DNA of 64,000 nucleotides from Cupriavidus taiwanensis (GTDB lineage Bacteria > Pseudomonadota > Gammaproteobacteria > Burkholderiales > Burkholderiaceae), in assembly GCF_900249755.1 (NCBI RefSeq), contig NZ_LT976853.1, forward strand, positions 346,011 through 410,010. The letters run 5' to 3'. Positions 694 to 10,828 of this stretch are shown piece by piece. Below the pieces are notes generated by a model. It was not told the DNA's origin and did not search any database. It was given only the letters and a program-made list of their open reading frames with translations. Position numbers and translations under genes: made by a program. Each line of letters begins with the position of its first letter. The first letter of the stretch is position 1.

Positions 694-1938
694 ATGTCAG
701 AGCACGCCCCCGAAATCGAGTCTTATCTCGGCACCACGCTCCAGTCCCCCGCGTCATCGCTGAAGCACCGATACTGCGCGCTGGCCGATACGCTGGACAG
801 CCGCGCCGAACTCGAAGCCATCCGGCGCAATATCCACCAGCATCCTGAACTGGCCTTCGACGAGGTCCGCACTTCGGGCCTGGTCGCCACCCTGCTGGAA
901 ACGTGGGGCTACGCGGTCACGCGCGGCGTGGGCGGGACCGGCGTGGTGGGCACGCTGCGCAACGGCGAGAGCGGGCACAGCGTGGGCATCCGCGCCGACA
1001 TGGATGCGTTGCCGATCCACGAGCGCACCGCGCTGCCGTACGCCAGCGTCAATGCCGGCCGCATGCACGCCTGCGGCCACGACGGCCACACCGCGATCCT
1101 GCTCGGCGCGGCCCGGCAGCTGGCGCGCACGCGCCATTTCAACGGCACCGTGCACCTGATCTTCCAGCCGGCCGAAGAGATCGGCGCCGGCGGCGGCGCC
1201 GAGCGCATGCTGGCCGACGGCCTGTTCGAGCGCTTTCCGTGCGATGCGATCTTCGGGCTGCATAACCATCCGGGCGTGGAGCAGGGCACTTTCCTGTTCC
1301 GCCCGGGCCCGTTCATGGCGGCGTGCGACACCGTCACCATCACCATCCGCGGCAAGGGCGGCCACGCCGCGCGCCCGCACCAGTCCGTCGACCCGATCCT
1401 GGTGGCGGGCAGCCTGGTGATGGCGCTGCAGTCGGTGGTGTCGCGCTATGTCGACCCGAACGAAACCGCGGTGGTGACGATCGGCACGCTGCATGCCGGC
1501 CACGCCCCCAACGTGATTCCGGACCACGCGCGCATGGAGCTCAGCGTGCGCTCGTTCAGCCCCGACGTGCGCGCCTCGCTGGAGCAGCGCATCCGCCAGC
1601 TCGCCACCTCGCACGCCGAAGGCTACGGCGCGGTGGCCGAGATCGATTACGTGCGCGGCTACCCGGTGCTCGTCAACAGCGAGCGCGAGACCGAGTTCGC
1701 GCGCCAGGTGGCCGAGGAACTGGTCGGCGGCGGCAAGGTGGTGGACAACGCCGCGCGCATCGCCGGCAGCGAGGACTTTGCCTACTTCCTGCAGCAGCGC
1801 CCGGGCTGCTTCGTGCGGCTGGGCAACGGCGCCAACCAGCCGCTGCTGCACAACGCCGGCTATGACTTCAACGACGACAACCTGACCGTCGGCGCGGCCT
1901 ACTGGACGCGGCTGGTCGAGCGCTACCTGGGCAACTGA
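694..1938 (+). CDS. M20 family metallopeptidase / amidohydrolase (hippurate hydrolase-like)
   Basis: This 414-residue protein belongs to the M20D amidohydrolases, which remove acyl or amide groups from N-acyl amino acids such as hippurate. Visible hallmarks are HACGHDGHTA with metal-ligand Cys127 and His129, the QPAEE catalytic/metal motif at about 159-163, a dimerisation lid starting near GPFMAACD with the GKGGHAA motif, and a C-terminal GSEDFAYF metal segment. The first ~30 residues precede the conserved start of the fold, so a later start is possible; the ATG at 694 follows AGAGAGCAAAACACC. No signal peptide is seen, so it is probably cytoplasmic. Substrate is not determinable from sequence alone. 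Confidence 0.88.
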   Translation: MSEHAPEIESYLGTTLQSPASSLKHRYCALADTLDSRAELEAIRRNIHQHPELAFDEVRTSGLVATLLETWGYAVTRGVGGTGVVGTLRNGESGHSVGIRADMDALPIHERTALPYASVNAGRMHACGHDGHTAILLGAARQLARTRHFNGTVHLIFQPAEEIGAGGGAERMLADGLFERFPCDAIFGLHNHPGVEQGTFLFRPGPFMAACDTVTITIRGKGGHAARPHQSVDPILVAGSLVMALQSVVSRYVDPNETAVVTIGTLHAGHAPNVIPDHARMELSVRSFSPDVRASLEQRIRQLATSHAEGYGAVAEIDYVRGYPVLVNSERETEFARQVAEELVGGGKVVDNAARIAGSEDFAYFLQQRPGCFVRLGNGANQPLLHNAGYDFNDDNLTVGAAYWTRLVERYLGN

Positions 1939-1961
1939 GCGCGGCTTCCGCGCGCCGGCGC

Positions 1962-2834
1962 TTAACGGAAGAACGCGCTCGGCGGCACGCCGAACTGCCG
2001 CCGGAACATGGTCGCGAACGCGCTCGGGCTGTCGTAGCCCAGGTCCAGTGCCACATCCACCACCTTGCTGCCGGCCGCCAGTTTTTCCAGCGCGGCCAGC
2101 AGGCGCGCCTGCTGGCGCCATTGGCCGAAGGTCATGCCGGTCTCGCGCGCAAAGCGGCGCTGGATGGTCTTGGGGTCCAGCGCCAGCCGCGCGCCCCAGT
2201 CGGCGAGTGTCAGCGCGGTGTCGGGCGCGGCGGCGATGGCGTCGCAGATCTGCCGCAGGCTGGCATCGGCCGGGCGCGGCAGGTGCAGCGGCAGCGACGG
2301 CACCAGCATCACCTCGTCGAGCAGCAGCCGCATCAGCCGCGCGTCGCGCGTGTCGGGCGCGTAGGGCAGGGCGATCTCCACCGCGGCCAGGATCAGCTCG
2401 CGCAGCAGCGGCGTGATGCCCAGCACGGTGCAGCGCTGCGGCAGGTCGGGCGCGGCATCGGGGCGGATATAGGCGGTGCGCATCTGCACCCGGCCCACCA
2501 TGCGGATCCAGTGCGTGGTGCCGCCCGGCATCCACATGCCGCGCGTGGGCGGCACGATCCACTGGCCTTCCGCGGTGGCCACGACCATCACGCCGTGCAC
2601 GGCGTGGATCAGCTGCGCATGCGGATGCTGGTGCGGCTGGGTCACGTGGCCGGGCAGGTAATCGGCCGCCATCGCGGTGACCGGCAGCGGGCTGCGGTCG
2701 AAGCGGAAGTAGGGCGGCGGGTCGGCGTAGGTGTCGCCCAGCGCCAGCGTTTCGGGCGTGGGATCGGGCAGCGGCTGCCGCGTACGGCGGTCGGCGGGGG
2801 CCGCAGCAGAAAGAGGGCGGGGGGCGCGCGCCAT
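1962..2834 (-). CDS. AraC family transcriptional regulator (NimR-like)
   Basis: This 290-residue regulator has an N-terminal cupin-type sensor (HQHPHAQLIHAVHG around residues 72-85) and a C-terminal double helix-turn-helix. The first HTH lies around the LTLADWGARLALDPKTIQRR segment and the second spans the VVDVALDLGYDSPSAFATMF segment with the conserved GY-S-S-F pattern. The start is supported by AAAAGGAC just upstream of the ATG. It diverges from an MFS transporter gene and ends facing the M20 gene. Overall layout resembles NimR-type regulators that control a neighbouring MFS exporter, so control of the adjacent transporter is a reasonable inference. Confidence 0.87.
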   Translation of the reverse strand: MARAPRPLSAAAPADRRTRQPLPDPTPETLALGDTYADPPPYFRFDRSPLPVTAMAADYLPGHVTQPHQHPHAQLIHAVHGVMVVATAEGQWIVPPTRGMWMPGGTTHWIRMVGRVQMRTAYIRPDAAPDLPQRCTVLGITPLLRELILAAVEIALPYAPDTRDARLMRLLLDEVMLVPSLPLHLPRPADASLRQICDAIAAAPDTALTLADWGARLALDPKTIQRRFARETGMTFGQWRQQARLLAALEKLAAGSKVVDVALDLGYDSPSAFATMFRRQFGVPPSAFFR

Positions 2835-2961
2835 GTCCTTTTCTCCAAGGTTGCGGACCTATTCTCGCAGGACAGGCGCTGGCGCGCCAGCTAGCATCGT
2901 GGCTCAGATCCTTGCTGGCCGGCGCCCCCGCTGGCCGCTTTCCGCTTGTCGAGAGCCGCCA

Positions 2962-4221
2962 ATGAGCACAACCATCGACTCCGCGCCCGCTGGCGCAGCC
3001 CCCGCGACCCCGTCGCCATCCTCGTCTTCGTCGCAGAGCCCGCAGGCGGAACGCACCGGTTTCCGCGTGCTGTCGGCAATCAGCTTCGCCCACTTCCTCA
3101 ACGACATGATCCAGTCGTTGATCCTGGCGATCTATCCGATGCTCAAGGGCGGCTTCAACCTGAGCTTCACCCAGATCGGGCTGCTGACCATGACCTACCA
3201 GGTCACCGCGTCGTTGCTGCAGCCGGTGGTGGGGCTCTACACCGACAAGCATCCCAAGCCGCATTCGCTGGCGGTGGCGATGGCCTTTACGCTGGCCGGC
3301 CTGCTGCTGCTGTCGGTGGCGCCCAGCTATGGCGTGCTGCTGGCGGCCGCGGCGCTGGTCGGCACCGGCTCGTCGATCTTCCATCCGGAGTCTTCACGCG
3401 TGGCGCGCATGGCGTCGGGCGGCCAGCACGGGCTGGCGCAGTCGATCTTCCAGGTGGGCGGCAACGGCGGCAGCGCCATGGGCCCGCTGCTGGCCGCGCT
3501 GATCGTGCACCAGCAGGCCAGCCTGGCGTGGTTCTCGCTGGCGGCGCTGGTGGGCATCGTGGTGCTGTGGCGCATCGGCGGCTGGTACGCGCGCCAGCTG
3601 GCGCAGGGCGCGCGCAAGCGCAAGGCCGCCGGCGCGGTGGCCAGCCCGGTGGCGACGCGCGTGGTGGTGCGGGCCATGGTGGTGCTGATGGTGCTGGTGT
3701 TCTCCAAGTACTTCTACATGGCCAGCCTGACCTCGTACTACACCTTCTACCTGATGGAGCGCTTCGCGCTGGCGCGCCAGGATGCGCAGCTGCACCTGTT
3801 CCTGTTCCTGTTCGCGGTCGCGGCCGGCACCATCCTGGGCGGCCCGATCGGCGACCGCATCGGCCGCAAGCGCGTGATCTGGGCGTCGATCCTGGGCGTG
3901 GCGCCGTTCACGCTGCTGCTGCCGCACGTGGACCTGTTCTGGACCACGGTGCTGACCTTCATCATCGGCTTTATCCTGGCCTCGGCGTTCTCGGCGATCC
4001 TGGTGTTCGCGCAGGAACTGATCCCCGGCAAGGTCGGCATGGTCTCCGGCCTGTTCTTCGGCTTTGCCTTCGGCATGGGAGGCATCGGCGCCGCGGTGCT
4101 GGGCGGCATGGCCGATACGCACGGCATCCGCGCGGTGTACGAATACTGTGCCTACCTGCCGCTGCTGGGGCTGCTGACGGTGTTCCTGCCCGACGTGCGC
4201 GAGCGTCCGCAGCGCGCCTGA
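2962..4221 (+). CDS. MFS transporter, fosmidomycin-resistance (Fsr) family
   Basis: This 419-residue inner-membrane transporter has about twelve hydrophobic segments after a Ser/Pro-rich cytoplasmic N-terminus of ~35 residues. The Fsr-type opening (SFAHFLNDMIQSLILAIYPM) and the DKHPKPHS loop after helix 2 are seen; the second half carries GDRIGRKRVIW, the classical MFS loop motif. Fsr relatives export fosmidomycin and other small compounds. The ATG at 2962 is chosen because the fold starts soon after; an upstream in-frame start exists but lacks family support. Divergent from the AraC-type regulator, which probably controls it. Confidence 0.87.
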   Translation: MSTTIDSAPAGAAPATPSPSSSSSQSPQAERTGFRVLSAISFAHFLNDMIQSLILAIYPMLKGGFNLSFTQIGLLTMTYQVTASLLQPVVGLYTDKHPKPHSLAVAMAFTLAGLLLLSVAPSYGVLLAAAALVGTGSSIFHPESSRVARMASGGQHGLAQSIFQVGGNGGSAMGPLLAALIVHQQASLAWFSLAALVGIVVLWRIGGWYARQLAQGARKRKAAGAVASPVATRVVVRAMVVLMVLVFSKYFYMASLTSYYTFYLMERFALARQDAQLHLFLFLFAVAAGTILGGPIGDRIGRKRVIWASILGVAPFTLLLPHVDLFWTTVLTFIIGFILASAFSAILVFAQELIPGKVGMVSGLFFGFAFGMGGIGAAVLGGMADTHGIRAVYEYCAYLPLLGLLTVFLPDVRERPQRA

Positions 4222-4235
4222 GAAAGTGCGGGTGC

Positions 4236-4787
4236 CTAGTCGCCCGCCTTGCCGTCGCCGCCACTGTCCGGTGGCGGCTCGAACATGCGCAGCCAGCGGC
4301 GCAGCAATGCGGCCAGCTGCGCGCGCTCGGTTGCGGTCAGCCCTTCAAGCAAGCGGTGCTCGTTGGCGACGTGCAGCTTCACCGCGTCATCGACGCGCGC
4401 GCGGCCGGCGTCGGTCAGCGCCACCAGCAGCCCGCGCCGGTCCTCCGGATTGGGCTCGCGCCGCACCAGCCCGGCCCGCTCGAGATGGTCGAGCCGGTTG
4501 GTCATGGTGCCCGAGGTGATCATCAGCGAACCGATCAGCGCGCCCGGCGACAACGCATAGGGCGGCCCGGCCCGGCGCAGCGTCGCCAGCACATCGAACT
4601 CCCACGGCTGCAGGCCGGTGGCGCCCAGCGCGGCTTCGATGGCGCGGCTGGTATGGCGGTTGAGCCGGCCCAGCCGACCGAGGATGCCCATCGGCGAGGC
4701 ATCGAGGTCAGGGCGTTCGCGCGCCCACTGGGCAAGGATGCCGTCGACATGGTCGGGCGCGTCTTCAGGTTTGCGGCGGGCGGTCAT
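4236..4787 (-). CDS. MarR family transcriptional regulator
   Basis: This 183-residue protein has the MarR winged-helix fold: dimerisation helices at both ends and a central recognition region (PYALSPGALIGSLMITSGTMTNRLDHLERAGLV) followed by the wing with the family signature RREPNPEDRRGLLVALT. The ATG at 4787 starts MTARRKPEDAPDH; a start 48 bases upstream would place the first operator very close to the coding region. It diverges from an EamA transporter, and the 95-base gap contains two copies of a MarR-type operator, so autoregulation plus control of the transporter is likely. Ligand unknown. The HIS-poor, compact form argues for a small-molecule sensor rather than a redox type. Confidence 0.88.
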   Translation of the reverse strand: MTARRKPEDAPDHVDGILAQWARERPDLDASPMGILGRLGRLNRHTSRAIEAALGATGLQPWEFDVLATLRRAGPPYALSPGALIGSLMITSGTMTNRLDHLERAGLVRREPNPEDRRGLLVALTDAGRARVDDAVKLHVANEHRLLEGLTATERAQLAALLRRWLRMFEPPPDSGGDGKAGD

Positions 4788-4823
4788 CAGGGCAGGGGGA
4801 CAGAGGCAAGATAGACCGAAGTA

Positions 4824-5880: not shown

Positions 5881-6168
5881 ATGCCACCAGCCCCAGCTCC
5901 TTCCGCGGCCACTTCGGCCTCTCCCGCCTCTCCCGCCACGCCGCCCTGCGAGCGCTGCCTGGCGCTGGCCGATGACCCGCGCCGGCGCGAGCCGCCGGCG
6001 TGCCTGGCGCTGCGCGGCACGGCACCGGTGGTGACGCAGAGTGCCGCCGGGGTGCCGTACAGCATGCTGTCCTTTAGCTGCCGCGACTGCGGCACGGGCT
6101 GGCGGCTCTATGACCGCGCCAACGAGCTCTTTGTCTCGTGGGTGCCGGAGCGGCCGCTGGAGCGCTGA
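5881..6168 (+). CDS. small cysteine-motif hypothetical protein
   Basis: A 95-residue protein with two Cys pairs: PCERC near the N-terminus and CRDCGTGW in the C-terminal half, together looking like a small zinc ribbon. The N-terminal 20 residues are Ala/Pro/Ser-rich. An in-frame ATG at 5794, overlapping the stop of the EamA gene (TGATG), would give 124 residues and translational coupling, so the start is uncertain. The C-terminal region (YSMLSFSCRDCGTGWRLYDRANELFVSWVPE) looks conserved-protein-like rather than random. No function can be named. Confidence 0.6.
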   Translation: MPPAPAPSAATSASPASPATPPCERCLALADDPRRREPPACLALRGTAPVVTQSAAGVPYSMLSFSCRDCGTGWRLYDRANELFVSWVPERPLER

Positions 6169-6267
6169 GCGCGCCGCATGATCGGCTAAGATAGCGGCTG
6201 TTCCGCGCCAGGCCGGCCCGTTGCCGCCGCGTGGCCGCTCCTGTCGAATTTCTCCCGCTTTCCCATC

Positions 6268-7257
6268 ATGGCCTTCCCCTTCCGCTCGTCGCCGCTGGCC
6301 GCAGCGTGCGTCTTCAGTGCTGCCGCACTGGCCCCCGCCGCTGCCGCCGCGGCCGACACCTATCCCAGCCGCCCGATCCGCCTGATCGTCGCCTATCCCA
6401 CCGGCGGCATCAGCGACACCGTGGCGCGCGCGCTCGGCGAGCGCCTGTCGGCGCAGATGGGTACCTCGGTGGTGGTGGAGAACAAGGCCGGCGCCGGCGG
6501 CAGCATCGGCATCGATGCGGTGGCCAAGGCCGCGGCGGACGGCTACACGCTCGGCTTCGCCGCGACCAGCCCGCTTACGCTGAATCCGCATGTCGGCCGC
6601 GTCAACTACGATCCGCAGAAGGACGTGGCGCCGGTAATGAGCGTGATGTACTCGCCGGTGCTGGTGGTCGCGACGTCCGCCTTCAGCGGCAAGAGCTTTG
6701 CCGACGTGGTCGGCCAGGCCAGCGCCAAGCCGGGTTCGGTACGCTGGGCCACGTCGGGCCTGGGCACGGTCGGCCATGTGGTGCTGGAACAGGTCAAGCA
6801 GAAGTCGAAGGCCGACATCGTGCTGATTCCGTACAAGGGCGCGGGCCAGCAGATGAACGATGCGCTCGGCGGCCAGTTCGAGGTGATGAGCACCAACGCC
6901 AGCCCGGTGCTGAGCCAGCATATGCAGGCCGGCCGCCTGCGCGCGCTGGCGGTAGGCGCGCCGAAGCGCCTGGAGAGCCTGCCGGCGGTGCCGACGCTGG
7001 CCGAGCTGGGCTATCCCAAGGCCAACCTGACCTCTACCTTCGGCATCTTCGCGCCGGGCAAGACGCCCGCGGCTATCATCAACCGCCTGAACGCCGAGCT
7101 GAACAAGGCGCTGGCGGAGCCGGAAGTCCATGAGCGCCTGCTCAAGGGCGGCGAAGTGCCGACCGGCGGCACGCCGGCGCAGTTTGCCAAGGCCATCCGC
7201 GAAGAGTCTGCCGAGAACGCCCGCATCGTCAGGGAAGCCGGCATCAAGGCTGAATGA
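6268..7257 (+). CDS. Bug-family tripartite tricarboxylate transporter substrate-binding protein
   Basis: This 329-residue periplasmic receptor starts with a signal peptide (FPFRSSPLAAACVFSAAALAPAAAAAA, cleavage near residue 29) followed by the family opening YPSRPIRLIVAYPTGGISD. Other hallmarks are VVVENKAGAGGSIGIDAVAKA, the VLIPYKGAGQQMNDALGGQ segment and the LAELGYP motif. Bug proteins bind carboxylates or similar small acids for TctAB permeases. None is encoded nearby, so this is an orphan receptor, as is very common in Cupriavidus and Bordetella. The ATG at 6268 directly precedes the signal peptide. Confidence 0.93.
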   Translation: MAFPFRSSPLAAACVFSAAALAPAAAAAADTYPSRPIRLIVAYPTGGISDTVARALGERLSAQMGTSVVVENKAGAGGSIGIDAVAKAAADGYTLGFAATSPLTLNPHVGRVNYDPQKDVAPVMSVMYSPVLVVATSAFSGKSFADVVGQASAKPGSVRWATSGLGTVGHVVLEQVKQKSKADIVLIPYKGAGQQMNDALGGQFEVMSTNASPVLSQHMQAGRLRALAVGAPKRLESLPAVPTLAELGYPKANLTSTFGIFAPGKTPAAIINRLNAELNKALAEPEVHERLLKGGEVPTGGTPAQFAKAIREESAENARIVREAGIKAE

Positions 7258-7288: not shown

Positions 7289-7969
7289 CTAGGCCGCATC
7301 GAGCCGGCTGCCCAGCCCATACACCGACGACAGCCGCACCCCGTTGTGCGGCCACAGCGCCAGCTTGGTGCGCACGCGCGACAGGTGGCTGTCCACCGTG
7401 CGCGAGGCCGCGTCCACGTGATAGCGCCACACCTGCTCGACCATGGTTTGGCGCAGCACCAGCGAGCCCAGGTTGCGGAACAACAGCACCGCCAGGTCGA
7501 ATTCCTTCGGGGCCAGCAGCACCGGCTTGCCCTGCACCCACACCTGCCGCTCGGCGGTGGCAAAGCGGAACGGCCCGTGTTCCAGGTCGCAGTCAGCACT
7601 GGCTGGCTGCGCGCGGCGCAGCAGCGCCAGCACGCGCGCGGCCAGTTCCGCGGTGCGCAGCGGCTTGGGCACGTAGCTGTCCGCGCCCTGCGCCAGGCAG
7701 GCCGCGACAAAGCCCTCTTCGTTCGACGTGCCGGTCAGCATCACCGGCATGTCATTGCCCAGCGTGCGGCGCACCCACGCCAGCACTTCCAGTGCCGGGA
7801 TGCCCGGCGTATCGCAATCCAGCATCAGCAGGTCGAACGACCTGGCGCGCAGCGCGCCGATCAGCGCGCGCCCGCTGAGGTAGCGCGTGCACTGGTGGCC
7901 GTTCAGGCGCAGGGTCTGTTCGATGCTGACGGCGAGGGTGGGGTCCGCCTGCAGCGCGGCGATCTTCAC
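7289..7969 (-). CDS. atypical OmpR-family response regulator
   Basis: This 226-residue protein has a receiver domain (about 1-115) and an OmpR-type winged helix (about 130-226, with the PKEFDLAVLLF and TVDSHLSRVRTKL hallmarks). The phospho-acceptor Asp51 (LMLDCD), Thr79 and Lys102 are present. However, the acidic pocket normally read as VEDD is LQAD: the Glu and the Mg-binding Asp are Gln7 and Ala8. Phosphorylation may therefore be lost or unusual. The GTG start is chosen because AGGAG lies 9 bases upstream and the fold begins at once; a TTG at 8002 is the alternative. It is divergent from, and similar to, the intact regulator at 8195. Confidence 0.85.
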   Translation of the reverse strand: MKIAALQADPTLAVSIEQTLRLNGHQCTRYLSGRALIGALRARSFDLLMLDCDTPGIPALEVLAWVRRTLGNDMPVMLTGTSNEEGFVAACLAQGADSYVPKPLRTAELAARVLALLRRAQPASADCDLEHGPFRFATAERQVWVQGKPVLLAPKEFDLAVLLFRNLGSLVLRQTMVEQVWRYHVDAASRTVDSHLSRVRTKLALWPHNGVRLSSVYGLGSRLDAA

Positions 7970-8194
7970 GGGGTGTGGCTCCTGTGCGCGGGCGCACTGC
8001 AATGCGCCGGTGGATTGGACACAGCTCGGTCACTACGGGCGACATTGGGCCCGCGGCGAAGCCCATGGTAGGAGCGGCCTGCTGAGGCGAGAAGTAAAAG
8101 ATTGTTGAAAGGCGAGATTGAGCCCTTTCCTATTCGTGCGGCCCGCAACACCGGCTTAAATGTCTCGCAAATGGCCAGTTCCGTCGGAGGCAAT

Positions 8195-8923
8195 ATGGGA
8201 AAGAAAACGGCATCGCGCATTGCATCGCTTGAGGACGCGCCCGCGGATGCGGCGCTGATCCGCCAGGTCGTCGCCGGCGCGGGATTCGAATGCGTGGGCT
8301 TCAGCGAAAGCCGGCGCCTGCTGCTGGCGCTGCGCGACGCCGGCTTCGACCTGCTGCTGCTGGACTGGCAGATGCCTGACCTGTCCGGGCGCGAGGTGCT
8401 GGCCTGGGTGCGCACCCACCTGGACCGGCGCATCCCGGTCATGTTCCTGACCTGCCGCGATGCCGAGCACGACATCGTCAGCGCGCTCGCCGCGGGCGCC
8501 GACGACTACATGGTCAAGCCGATCCGCCCGGCGGAGCTGGCCGCGCGCATCGAATGCCTGCTGCGGCGCGCGTATCCCGCGCAGGCGTCGCCGCACGCGC
8601 CGCTGCGGCTGGGCGACTATGCGTTCGACTGCGCGCTGCGCAAGGTCACCTGCAACGGCCAGCCGATCGGCCTGACGCCTAAGGAGTTCGACCTCGCGGT
8701 GCTGCTGTTCCGCCACGAGGGCCGCATCGTCACGCGCGACCATATCACCGCCGCGGTCTGGGGCCGCGAGATCTCGCCCATGTCGCGCACCATCGATACC
8801 CACGTGTCGCGCGTGCGCAGCAAGCTCGGGCTGCAGGCCGAACACGGCATGCGGCTGACCCCGGTCTATACGCATGGCTACCGGCTGGAGCGCATGGCAC
8901 ACGCCGAGCGGGCCGCGGCATGA
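8195..8923 (+). CDS. OmpR-family response regulator
   Basis: This 242-residue DNA-binding regulator has a complete receiver: acidic Glu13/Asp14, phospho-acceptor Asp57 (LLLLDWQMPD), Thr86 and Lys108, followed by an OmpR-type winged helix with LTPKEFDLAVLLF and a final TIDTHVSRVRSKLGL recognition region. The ATG at 8195 follows GGAGG closely; in-frame ATG 8171 is an alternative. Its last four bases overlap the start of the histidine-kinase-like gene (ATGA), so the two are translated together. It resembles the divergent regulator at 7289 in the receiver (EVLAWVR) and output domain, suggesting duplication. Confidence 0.88.
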   Translation: MGKKTASRIASLEDAPADAALIRQVVAGAGFECVGFSESRRLLLALRDAGFDLLLLDWQMPDLSGREVLAWVRTHLDRRIPVMFLTCRDAEHDIVSALAAGADDYMVKPIRPAELAARIECLLRRAYPAQASPHAPLRLGDYAFDCALRKVTCNGQPIGLTPKEFDLAVLLFRHEGRIVTRDHITAAVWGREISPMSRTIDTHVSRVRSKLGLQAEHGMRLTPVYTHGYRLERMAHAERAAA

Positions 8924-9687
8924 CGGCGCGCCCGCTGCGCCAGGCGCTGGTTGCCGCAACGTTGTGCCTGGGCGCGTACTGGCTGGCGCGGCGCACCCGC
9001 GGCGCCGCAGCCGTGCCGGCGCGGCCAGGCCAGGGCAATGCCGACGTGCGCGACCCGGCCGCCGTGCTCGACATGCTGCTGCATGTGCTGGGCCACGACC
9101 TGCGCCAACCCAATGCCTCGCTGCTGGCGTGGCTGGCGCTGCGCGAGACCCGGTCGCAGGCCGATGCCGCACTGCTGGCGCAGGTGGGCGGCCATGCGCG
9201 CCGCTCGCTCGCCCATATCGACGACCTGAACCGGCTGCTGCGCGAAACCCGGCATGCCTACCGGATGCGGCGGATCGCCATGGAAACCTTGCTCGATGAA
9301 GCGCTGGACCGCGTCTGGACCGAAGCCGGCGAGGCCGGCATCCGGCTGGAGCGCCCGGCCGGACGCCTGCCGCGCATCGGCGGGGACGCGGCGATGCTCG
9401 CCGGCACGCTGCAATGGCTGCTGGCCAGCGCCATCGGCGCCGCGGCGCGTGGCACGGCCCTGCGTACCACATGCCGCGGCCATGCCGGTGGCATGGCGCT
9501 GTCGATCGTGTTCCAGCCCCCCGACGACGCAAGCGCCGCGCAACTGGCCCGGCCCGGGCCCGCACTGCTGTGCGCGCAGCGCGTGGTGGCGCGCCATGGC
9601 GGGCTGCTGGTGCCGCTGCAGCCGCTGCAAGGCGCCGCGGCGCAGGCCGGCTGGTACCTGTGGCTGCGGCGCCGGCCGCGCCCATGA
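8920..9687 (+). CDS. degenerate sensor histidine kinase-like protein
   Basis: This 255-residue protein starts with one membrane segment (about 8-23) and contains a good H-box, LGHDLRQP, with His59. The rest of the kinase is eroded. At the N-box position WLLASAIGAAARGTAL lacks the ATP/Mg-binding Asn (Ser170), no DxGxG G1 box is seen, and the G2 region reads GPALLCAQRVVARHGG instead of a GxGLG loop. There is no periplasmic sensor domain. It overlaps the upstream response-regulator gene by 4 bases. It may act only as a phosphotransfer dimer or phosphatase, or need another kinase. Loss of function is equally possible. Confidence 0.75.
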   Translation: MTARPLRQALVAATLCLGAYWLARRTRGAAAVPARPGQGNADVRDPAAVLDMLLHVLGHDLRQPNASLLAWLALRETRSQADAALLAQVGGHARRSLAHIDDLNRLLRETRHAYRMRRIAMETLLDEALDRVWTEAGEAGIRLERPAGRLPRIGGDAAMLAGTLQWLLASAIGAAARGTALRTTCRGHAGGMALSIVFQPPDDASAAQLARPGPALLCAQRVVARHGGLLVPLQPLQGAAAQAGWYLWLRRRPRP

Positions 9688-9713
9688 AAAAAGGCACCCG
9701 AAGGTGCCTTTTT
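9687..9713. terminator. bidirectional intrinsic terminator
   Basis: AAAAAAGGCACC-CGAA-GGTGCCTTTTT: an 8-bp GC-containing stem with flanking A and T runs, starting at the kinase stop codon and lying 27 bases before the convergent porin stop. It can serve both strands. Confidence 0.85.
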
Positions 9714-9739: not shown

Positions 9740-10828
9740 TCAGAAGATGTGGCGGATACCGATGGCAGCGCCGGTCTGGTTGTTGCGGCCCGGCATTTCG
9801 GTGATGGTGCCGCCCGAAACCTTGTTGAAGTCAACCGTGCCGTAGACCTGGGTGCGCTTGGACAGCGAGTACTCGGCCAGCAGCACGCCGGTGTAGCGAC
9901 GGCCGTTGTTGTCGTTCACGCCGTTGACGTTTTCGACATAGTCGCCGTAGAACACGCCGGTTAGCGCCAGCGCAGGGGTGGCCTGGTAGGTCACGCCGAT
10001 GTAGCCGATGGTGTCCTTGCGCGGGTTGGCCGCTGCGTTGCCACCTGCCGGGATCGGGTTCATCGTCGTGGCGCCGGTCGAGGTGTCGAAGTTCAGCGAA
10101 GCGTCGACACTGCCGGTGCGGTCCTTGCCACCGATATAACCCACGAAGACCTTTGCCGGGCCGATCGAGTATTTACCCGCAGCGCCCCACATCTGCTGCT
10201 TCTCGCCGGTGGTGTTGCGCACTTCCTGGTACACGCCGCCGATGCCGAACGGACCAAAGGTGTAAGCGGCACGCGCGCCCCAGTACTGGTTCTGGCTCAT
10301 GCTGCCCGGCTGCTCGCCGAAGCCGTAGCTGGCGCCGACGTCCAGGCCGCCGAACTTGCCGCCGTAGCTGACGACGTTGTCGTTACGGAAGTTGGTCAGG
10401 AAGAACGGCCAGGCGTTGTTGGTGTAGTTGCCGATGGTCAGCGGATCGTAGTCGCCGAAGAAATTAAAGCCTTCGGTGTACTGGCGGCCCAGCTTGATCG
10501 TGCCGAAGTCGCCGCTCAGGCCCACGTAGGCCTGACGACCAAACAGGCGGCCATTCTGGTTGGCGCGACCGGTGTCCGGATCAAAGCCGTTTTCCAGCTG
10601 GAAGATCGCCTTCAGGTTGTTGCCCAGGGCTTCGCTGCCCTTGATGCCCCAGCGGCTGTTGGTGACGGCGCCGTTGGTCAGTTCCCACGAGTTGTCATTG
10701 TTGGCGTTCGCGTTCGTCTGGAAGCGGATGCTCTGGTCGACGATACCGTACAGGGTGACGGAGGTTTGTGCGAAAGCCGAACCTGCCAACAGGCTGCCGG
10801 CTGCGAGGACGATGGCCGATTTCTTCAT
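9740..10828 (-). CDS. Gram-negative general porin (Burkholderiales OmpC-like)
   Basis: This 362-residue outer-membrane protein has a signal peptide with an AFA/Q cleavage site after about residue 20. The mature start QTSVTLYGIVDQSI is typical of porin_4 trimeric porins. Alternating beta-strand sequence continues through LGRQYTEGFNFFGDYDPL and ends with the terminal Phe (IGIRHIF) needed for Bam-assisted assembly. Sixteen strands are expected. It allows diffusion of small hydrophilic solutes. AAAAGGAGC precedes the ATG. Codon choice looks more biased towards frequent codons (high AAC, GGC, ACC) than neighbours, consistent with high expression. It is monocistronic with its own convergent terminator. 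Confidence 0.94.
   Translation of the reverse strand: MKKSAIVLAAGSLLAGSAFAQTSVTLYGIVDQSIRFQTNANANNDNSWELTNGAVTNSRWGIKGSEALGNNLKAIFQLENGFDPDTGRANQNGRLFGRQAYVGLSGDFGTIKLGRQYTEGFNFFGDYDPLTIGNYTNNAWPFFLTNFRNDNVVSYGGKFGGLDVGASYGFGEQPGSMSQNQYWGARAAYTFGPFGIGGVYQEVRNTTGEKQQMWGAAGKYSIGPAKVFVGYIGGKDRTGSVDASLNFDTSTGATTMNPIPAGGNAAANPRKDTIGYIGVTYQATPALALTGVFYGDYVENVNGVNDNNGRRYTGVLLAEYSLSKRTQVYGTVDFNKVSGGTITEMPGRNNQTGAAIGIRHIF

Follow-up and report, generated by a model that had tools for sequence, protein, structure and literature searches.

Does a histidine kinase that has no ATP site still work by phosphate chemistry, and how does a response regulator come to escape phosphorylation? Pseudo-histidine kinases and pseudo-receivers are common and their function is mostly obscure. 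A locus in the window (the 64,000-nucleotide stretch of Cupriavidus taiwanensis DNA analysed here) makes both questions testable: at one syntenic site in nearly 60 related species, a pseudokinase has been lost independently several times, and the receiver site of the adjoining regulator is lost only where the pseudokinase is gone. The original prediction described this locus as two paralogous OmpR-type regulators facing away from each other, the right-hand one overlapping a kinase-like ORF by 4 bases. That layout holds in the coordinates and strands of all three frames and in the overlap itself (ATGA). Pfam finds Response_reg and Trans_reg_C domains in both regulators, which makes them OmpR/PhoB type, and they are ~45% identical to each other. 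The features of the locus are as follows.

6268 to 7257, plus strand: TctC/Bug-type tripartite tricarboxylate transporter receptor, a synteny anchor (Pfam, synteny)
7289 to 7969, minus strand: RRL, OmpR/PhoB-family regulator with a pseudo-receiver (Pfam and alignment)
7970 to 8194, no strand: divergent intergenic region common to RRL and RRR, 225 bp
8091 to 8136, plus strand: conserved block, probable shared promoter/operator (from conservation)
8195 to 8923, plus strand: RRR, OmpR/PhoB-family regulator with an intact receiver (Pfam and alignment)
8920 to 9687, plus strand: kinase-like protein, a pseudo-histidine kinase (alignment, AlphaFold model)
9688 to 9713, no strand: hairpin, probable shared bidirectional terminator (from sequence)
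9740 to 10828, minus strand: Gram-negative porin, a synteny anchor (Pfam, synteny)

We searched all 60 Cupriavidus genomes and read their loci. The gene order TctC, RRL (minus), RRR (plus), kinase-like gene where present, porin (minus), minE and minD is conserved in Cupriavidus, and 58 of the 60 genomes contain all or part of the regulator locus; the species concerned include C. alkaliphilus, C. necator, C. neocaledonicus, C. gilardii, C. basilensis and C. respiraculi. The module is no single-strain accident; it is syntenic across the genus. Twenty-seven genomes carry the kinase-like gene (one of them, L064, has a stop codon in RRR); it is frameshifted (L043, L044) or deleted (L060) in three relatives of the window and absent from a further 27, among them C. 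pinatubonensis, C. pauculus and C. pampae; one more locus (G012) is truncated. At L060 (G029, 3774–4800), the deletion has removed RRR along with all but the last ~40 codons of the kinase, which adjoin an intact RRL. Beyond the genus, the best regulator matches are ~50% identical and include regulators linked to CHASE2 kinases; the three-gene arrangement was not found in the four loci read outside Cupriavidus, and a search of a plasmid collection returned a 72-base porin match and nothing more.

The closest intact relatives found are a Burkholderiaceae CHASE2 kinase and its OmpR-family regulator, which are 23–26% identical to the kinase-like protein over the kinase core and ~50–54% identical to RRR, respectively. 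This system differs from ours in pairing a full CHASE2-PAS-HisKA-HATPase kinase with a canonical regulator, and it lies at another locus. Alignment with the intact CHASE2-type kinases reveals that all 26 kinase-like orthologues (27–89% identical to the window protein) lack the N, G1, F and G2 boxes as well as the lid. Where the intact kinases carry NLVSNAIKFS as their N box, the kinase-like protein reads QWLLASAIGAA, and their G1 (DQGPGI) and G2 (GTGLGL) motifs have no counterpart. The phosphoacceptor histidine of a canonical HisKA H box, by contrast, is retained: H59 is invariant in 26 of 26 aligned orthologues, one of 13 invariant columns that also include R62, and D60 and P64 are nearly invariant. 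The original prediction had His59 kept, with the N-box Asn, G1 and G2 missing and no sensor domain, all of which hold, and the alignment adds the F box to the list of losses. Profile searches give the same picture. Pfam reports no domain in the window protein, and among the 26 orthologues it recovers HATPase_c in none and HisKA in six (E 0.017 or worse), as against HATPase_c scores of 4.6e-24 or better for three intact paralogues; NCBIfam finds weak similarity to CreC/PhoR/HK models.

The AlphaFold model of the kinase-like protein (pLDDT 86, pTM 0.75) predicts a DHp hairpin at ~46–111 that includes H59, followed by an α/β CA-like domain at ~117–250 with no ATP site; a hydrophobic N-terminal helix (4–27) occurs only in the window's clade. 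Its best solved fold matches by Foldseek are ZraS, the pseudokinase DivL, HK853, CusS and RetS, and a profile search agrees. As modelled, the protein is a pseudo-histidine kinase, in which a histidine kinase fold is predicted and the catalytic residues are missing. One could argue from the CA-like α/β sandwich, predicted with high confidence, that the protein binds nucleotide in an unusual site and retains kinase activity, but we consider this extremely improbable given that every orthologue is without all four boxes and the lid. The family also has conserved features of its own: E109, H112 and Y114 are near-invariant here and not in the intact CHASE2-type paralogues, and W245 is invariant here and missing from them, which suggests a constraint peculiar to the kinase-like family. 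In the window's clade, ω for the gene is 0.36 overall (DHp 0.28, CA 0.30, N terminus 0.61), compared with 0.12 for RRR and 0.14 for RRL. The kinase-like gene is thus under purifying selection but is less constrained than the regulators, and it diverges fast, with 27–37% identity between the window protein and those of other clades.

RRL is also atypical. Under a published definition (PMC12632262), a receiver that is missing one or more of its five conserved residues counts as a pseudo-receiver, and by its sequence RRL falls within this class of atypical response regulators. In the window, Q7, A8 and G80 replace E/D, D and T/S, while D51 and K102 are kept. The substitution of Gln and Ala for the acidic pair had been correctly read from the sequence, as had the retention of Asp51 and Lys; the Thr thought to be retained is not. 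In the motif PVMLTGT, the fifth position after Pro, equivalent to T86 of RRR and occupied by Ser in canonical RRLs such as that of L059, is Gly80, with T79 lying one residue early, so RRL lacks three of its five active-site residues. At least one of these residues is missing from RRL in 45 of 49 scored genomes, the canonical exceptions being L059, L113, L116 and L117. The lesion varies by clade: QA with D51 and K kept in the window's clade; QA or QT with K lost in L096–L100; EA in L101–L105; D51 changed to Ala or Thr with K lost in L045–L050 (without L048) and L064; K changed to Gln in L107–L110, L112, L114, L115 and L119–L122; and Q, with D and K, in L051–L053, L056, L057 and L063. Every clade preserves the recognition-helix region RT[VIL]DSHLSR. 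Taken together, the clade-varying lesions and the conserved helix point to a regulator that still binds DNA but has become independent of receiver phosphorylation. Within the ω of 0.14 for RRL, the receiver stands at 0.19 and the DNA-binding domain at 0.09, and the RRL frame is open where RRR and the kinase are broken, shortened or deleted (L043, L044, L060). We also considered whether RRL arose by a recent duplication of RRR: in the regulator tree RRL forms a supported clade, and a grouping of RRL with RRR relative to the CHASE2-linked regulators was neither supported nor rejected.

Decay confined to this strain can be rejected. The window's clade as a whole carries the Q7/A8 pair and the ATP-site motifs are absent from 26 of 26 orthologues, and this sharing refutes the view that one strain simply carries decayed copies and favours a non-canonical switch. 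Since the kinase has been lost outright in about half of the genus, decay is also part of the story.

The partner of the kinase-like protein is most readily sought in RRR, which, as originally predicted, has a fully canonical receiver (E13, D14, D57, T86 and K108, all five active-site residues) in the window. On a species tree of TctC, MinD and MinE (59 rows), the kinase-like gene is best taken as ancestral because it is syntenic in deeply separate clades, and it has undergone at least five losses. In the kinase-less loci L096 and L097, an in-frame stump consisting of the gene start and end, ATG...GCGCGCCCATGA, persists between RRR and the terminator. None of the 26 scored kinase-bearing genomes departs from the RRR site pattern E/D, E/D, D, T/S, K, and 16 of the 25 kinase-less genomes are short of at least one of its residues: the metal-site acid, the Asp or the Thr. 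These lesions change the second acid to A, N, S or G, the Asp to Thr (L109) or to Glu, or the Thr to Ala. There have been at least eight losses of the RRR site, in five lineages, all on kinase-less branches and none on kinase-bearing ones, and the total branch length is similar with the kinase (1.64) and without it (1.81). A model in which the rate of RRR loss depends on kinase presence fitted better (LR 7.9, p 0.005), given an assumed rooting and a kinase-bearing ancestor; the same test on RRL gave p 0.14 with the opposite trend. The lesions are confined to two of the five kinase-loss clades, and after the three other losses (L096–100, L106, L111) RRR is still canonical; an independent-pairs test of RRR lesions against kinase loss had too few pairs for significance. 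Following kinase loss, the rate ratio is 1.84 for the RRR receiver and 1.58 for its DNA-binding domain, against 1.23 for TctC and 0.82–1.08 for RRL, so that RRR accelerates relative to TctC and RRL does not. Since the RRR site is complete in the presence of the kinase and shows decay only in its absence, these comparisons suggest that the broken kinase still serves RRR. The lesion that turns the RRR Asp into Glu, a potential phosphomimic, is found in L113, L114, L115, L116 and L117, which belong to two kinase-less lineages.

These patterns bear on whether the kinase-like gene is instead a relic in slow decay, its conserved residues merely historical. Such a relic would be expected to show what we see in its five or more losses, its frameshift and deletion alleles in the window's relatives, its fast divergence and its dispensability in half of the genus. 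We nevertheless think this unlikely: ω is low in both folded domains in the window's clade, H59 is unchanged even between the earliest-diverging branches of the genus tree, and the site of the partner RRR decays only after kinase loss. The loss of the ATP site is itself old, being common to all carriers of the gene.

The same comparisons separate the two regulators. The original prediction took all three parts to form one rewired switch; its non-canonical character stands, but the single three-part switch is not favoured, as RRR is intact and tracks the kinase while RRL lesions occur regardless of it. Because RRL breaks independently of the kinase and outlives both RRR and the kinase, the locus is better described as RRR with its pseudokinase plus an independent pseudo-receiver regulator. 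We put at about an even chance the reading in which RRR and a phosphotransfer pseudokinase form a working pair beside a phosphorylation-independent RRL. In this scheme, the kinase-like protein would have lost ATP binding and autophosphorylation and kept the dimerization/phosphoacceptor hairpin with His59. His59 would receive a phosphoryl group from another source, either a paralogous kinase in trans or another receiver, and would hand it to D57 of RRR, in the manner of Spo0B, ChpT and PhyT. A natural candidate donor is the CHASE2 sensor kinase on contig 2 of the same genome (G000 contig 2, L130), where a CHASE2-PAS-HisKA-HATPase kinase (1869–4817) accompanies an OmpR-family regulator (6014–6715) that is 50% identical to RRR. 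RRL, for its part, would act as a phosphorylation-independent OmpR-family regulator on the divergent promoter region that it has in common with RRR. A phosphotransfer role towards RRR is favoured by the combination of no ATP site anywhere in the family, an invariant His and RRR decay only after gene loss.

Two other roles for the protein have to be weighed against phosphotransfer. Autokinase activity is not a prerequisite for a DHp domain to dephosphorylate a regulator, so the kinase-like protein could be an RRR phosphatase, with another kinase phosphorylating RRR, and its co-loss with the RRR site would fit. The HisKA phosphatase motif H-E/D-x-x-T/N, however, is not kept: every orthologue carries Q, E, A, S, V or C at its fifth position (H+4). 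This makes phosphatase activity less likely, and we regard this role as distinctly improbable. Alternatively, the protein might dock onto or form heterodimers with RRR, a paralogous kinase or both through its DHp helices, sequestering or steering them, with His59 kept for fold or docking. RetS acts in such a way on GacS, and the profile and fold matches to DivL and RetS, the presence of the paralogous CHASE2 kinase and regulator in the same genome and the conservation of E109, H112 and Y114 outside the phosphoacceptor site are all in keeping with it; sequestration or heterodimerization also fits the same co-loss pattern. Docking alone, though, does not need full invariance of the phosphoacceptor His (DivL carries Tyr at that position), and the fact that the RRR phosphorylation site stays whole wherever the kinase-like gene is kept speaks for phosphate chemistry, so that we judge docking rather unlikely. 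A precedent for it is the ChrS pseudokinase of Corynebacterium glutamicum, which heterodimerizes with its paralogue HrrS, and HrrS cross-phosphorylates ChrA (PMC9491836). ChrS resembles our protein as a CA-dead histidine kinase beside a paralogous kinase that phosphorylates its regulator, but it arose by a laboratory-evolved frameshift in a full sensor kinase, whereas the window family represents a fixed, lineage-wide state.

For phosphotransfer through the conserved His, the nearest likenesses are ChpT of Caulobacter crescentus and Spo0B, both dimeric histidine kinase-like phosphotransferases, and PhyT of Sphingomonas melonis. In ChpT the CA-like domain fails to bind ATP and the protein shows no autophosphorylation (PMC3433190); the window family appears to combine likewise, as judged from sequence and model, a kept His with an ATP-incompetent CA-like domain. 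We detected no sequence relationship to ChpT or Spo0B: the Pfam HPTransfase model matches 1 of 26 orthologues at E=2, and ChpT is absent from the 50 PDB fold matches listed. PhyT (formerly PhyP) relays phosphate from SdrG to PhyR via a conserved His (PMC5898713) and, like the window protein, is derived from a histidine kinase, has a degenerate ATPase domain and is encoded at its regulator's locus. It differs in its HRxxN-type DHp, its membrane anchor, a putative periplasmic sensor, its known donor SdrG and its target PhyR, whereas the window protein is of the HDLRxP HisKA type, has no sensor and has an OmpR-family partner and a donor that is only a candidate. CmrRST of Clostridioides difficile (PMC12548384) likewise has two OmpR-family regulators, one canonical and one a probable pseudo-receiver; its abstract mentions no degenerate kinase, and the organization and lineage are different. 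Pseudo-receivers and degenerate kinases are therefore known kinds; in the literature searched, whose coverage was incomplete, we found no description of this kinase-like family, its placement or the co-decay pattern. Somewhat short of an even chance, in our estimate, is the broader idea that a genus-wide family of ATP-site-less histidine kinases, recognized by no Pfam family, is the dedicated phosphotransfer partner of one OmpR-type regulator, and that its repeated loss lets RRR shed or mimic phosphorylation (Asp to Thr, Asp to Glu). If true, the genus would offer a natural series of steps between a phosphorelay and a regulator free of phosphorylation, next to a sister regulator in which this change is complete.

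Both regulators may be controlled from the DNA between them. Most of the genus retains the block at 8091–8136, GAAGTAAAAGATTGTTGAAA...ATTGAG...TTTCCTATTCG, whose core is found at this one place in the window's own genome; it is probably a promoter/operator shared by RRL and RRR, through which the two might share autoregulation. A wider regulon acting through this block was considered and rejected: two other hits in the genome have 3 mismatches, near the reversed-pattern control. Read by eye, the regions upstream of the porin, TctC and the paralogous regulators contain no such block. At the other end of the module, the hairpin at 9688–9713 (GGCACC-CGAA-GGTGCC, with flanking A and T runs and a U-tract) separates the convergent kinase-like and porin genes, is also retained in the kinase-less loci inspected and, judging by these features, is probably a shared bidirectional terminator. 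In L051, L052, L053, L056, L059 and L063 the kinase-like frame runs through this hairpin, which gives the protein a hairpin-encoded end, ...KKAPEGAFLP. Upstream of the module, a short ORF at 5890–6168 (plus strand) with two CxxC pairs (CERC...CRDC), possibly a small zinc-ribbon protein, sits between a drug/metabolite-transporter-like gene and TctC.
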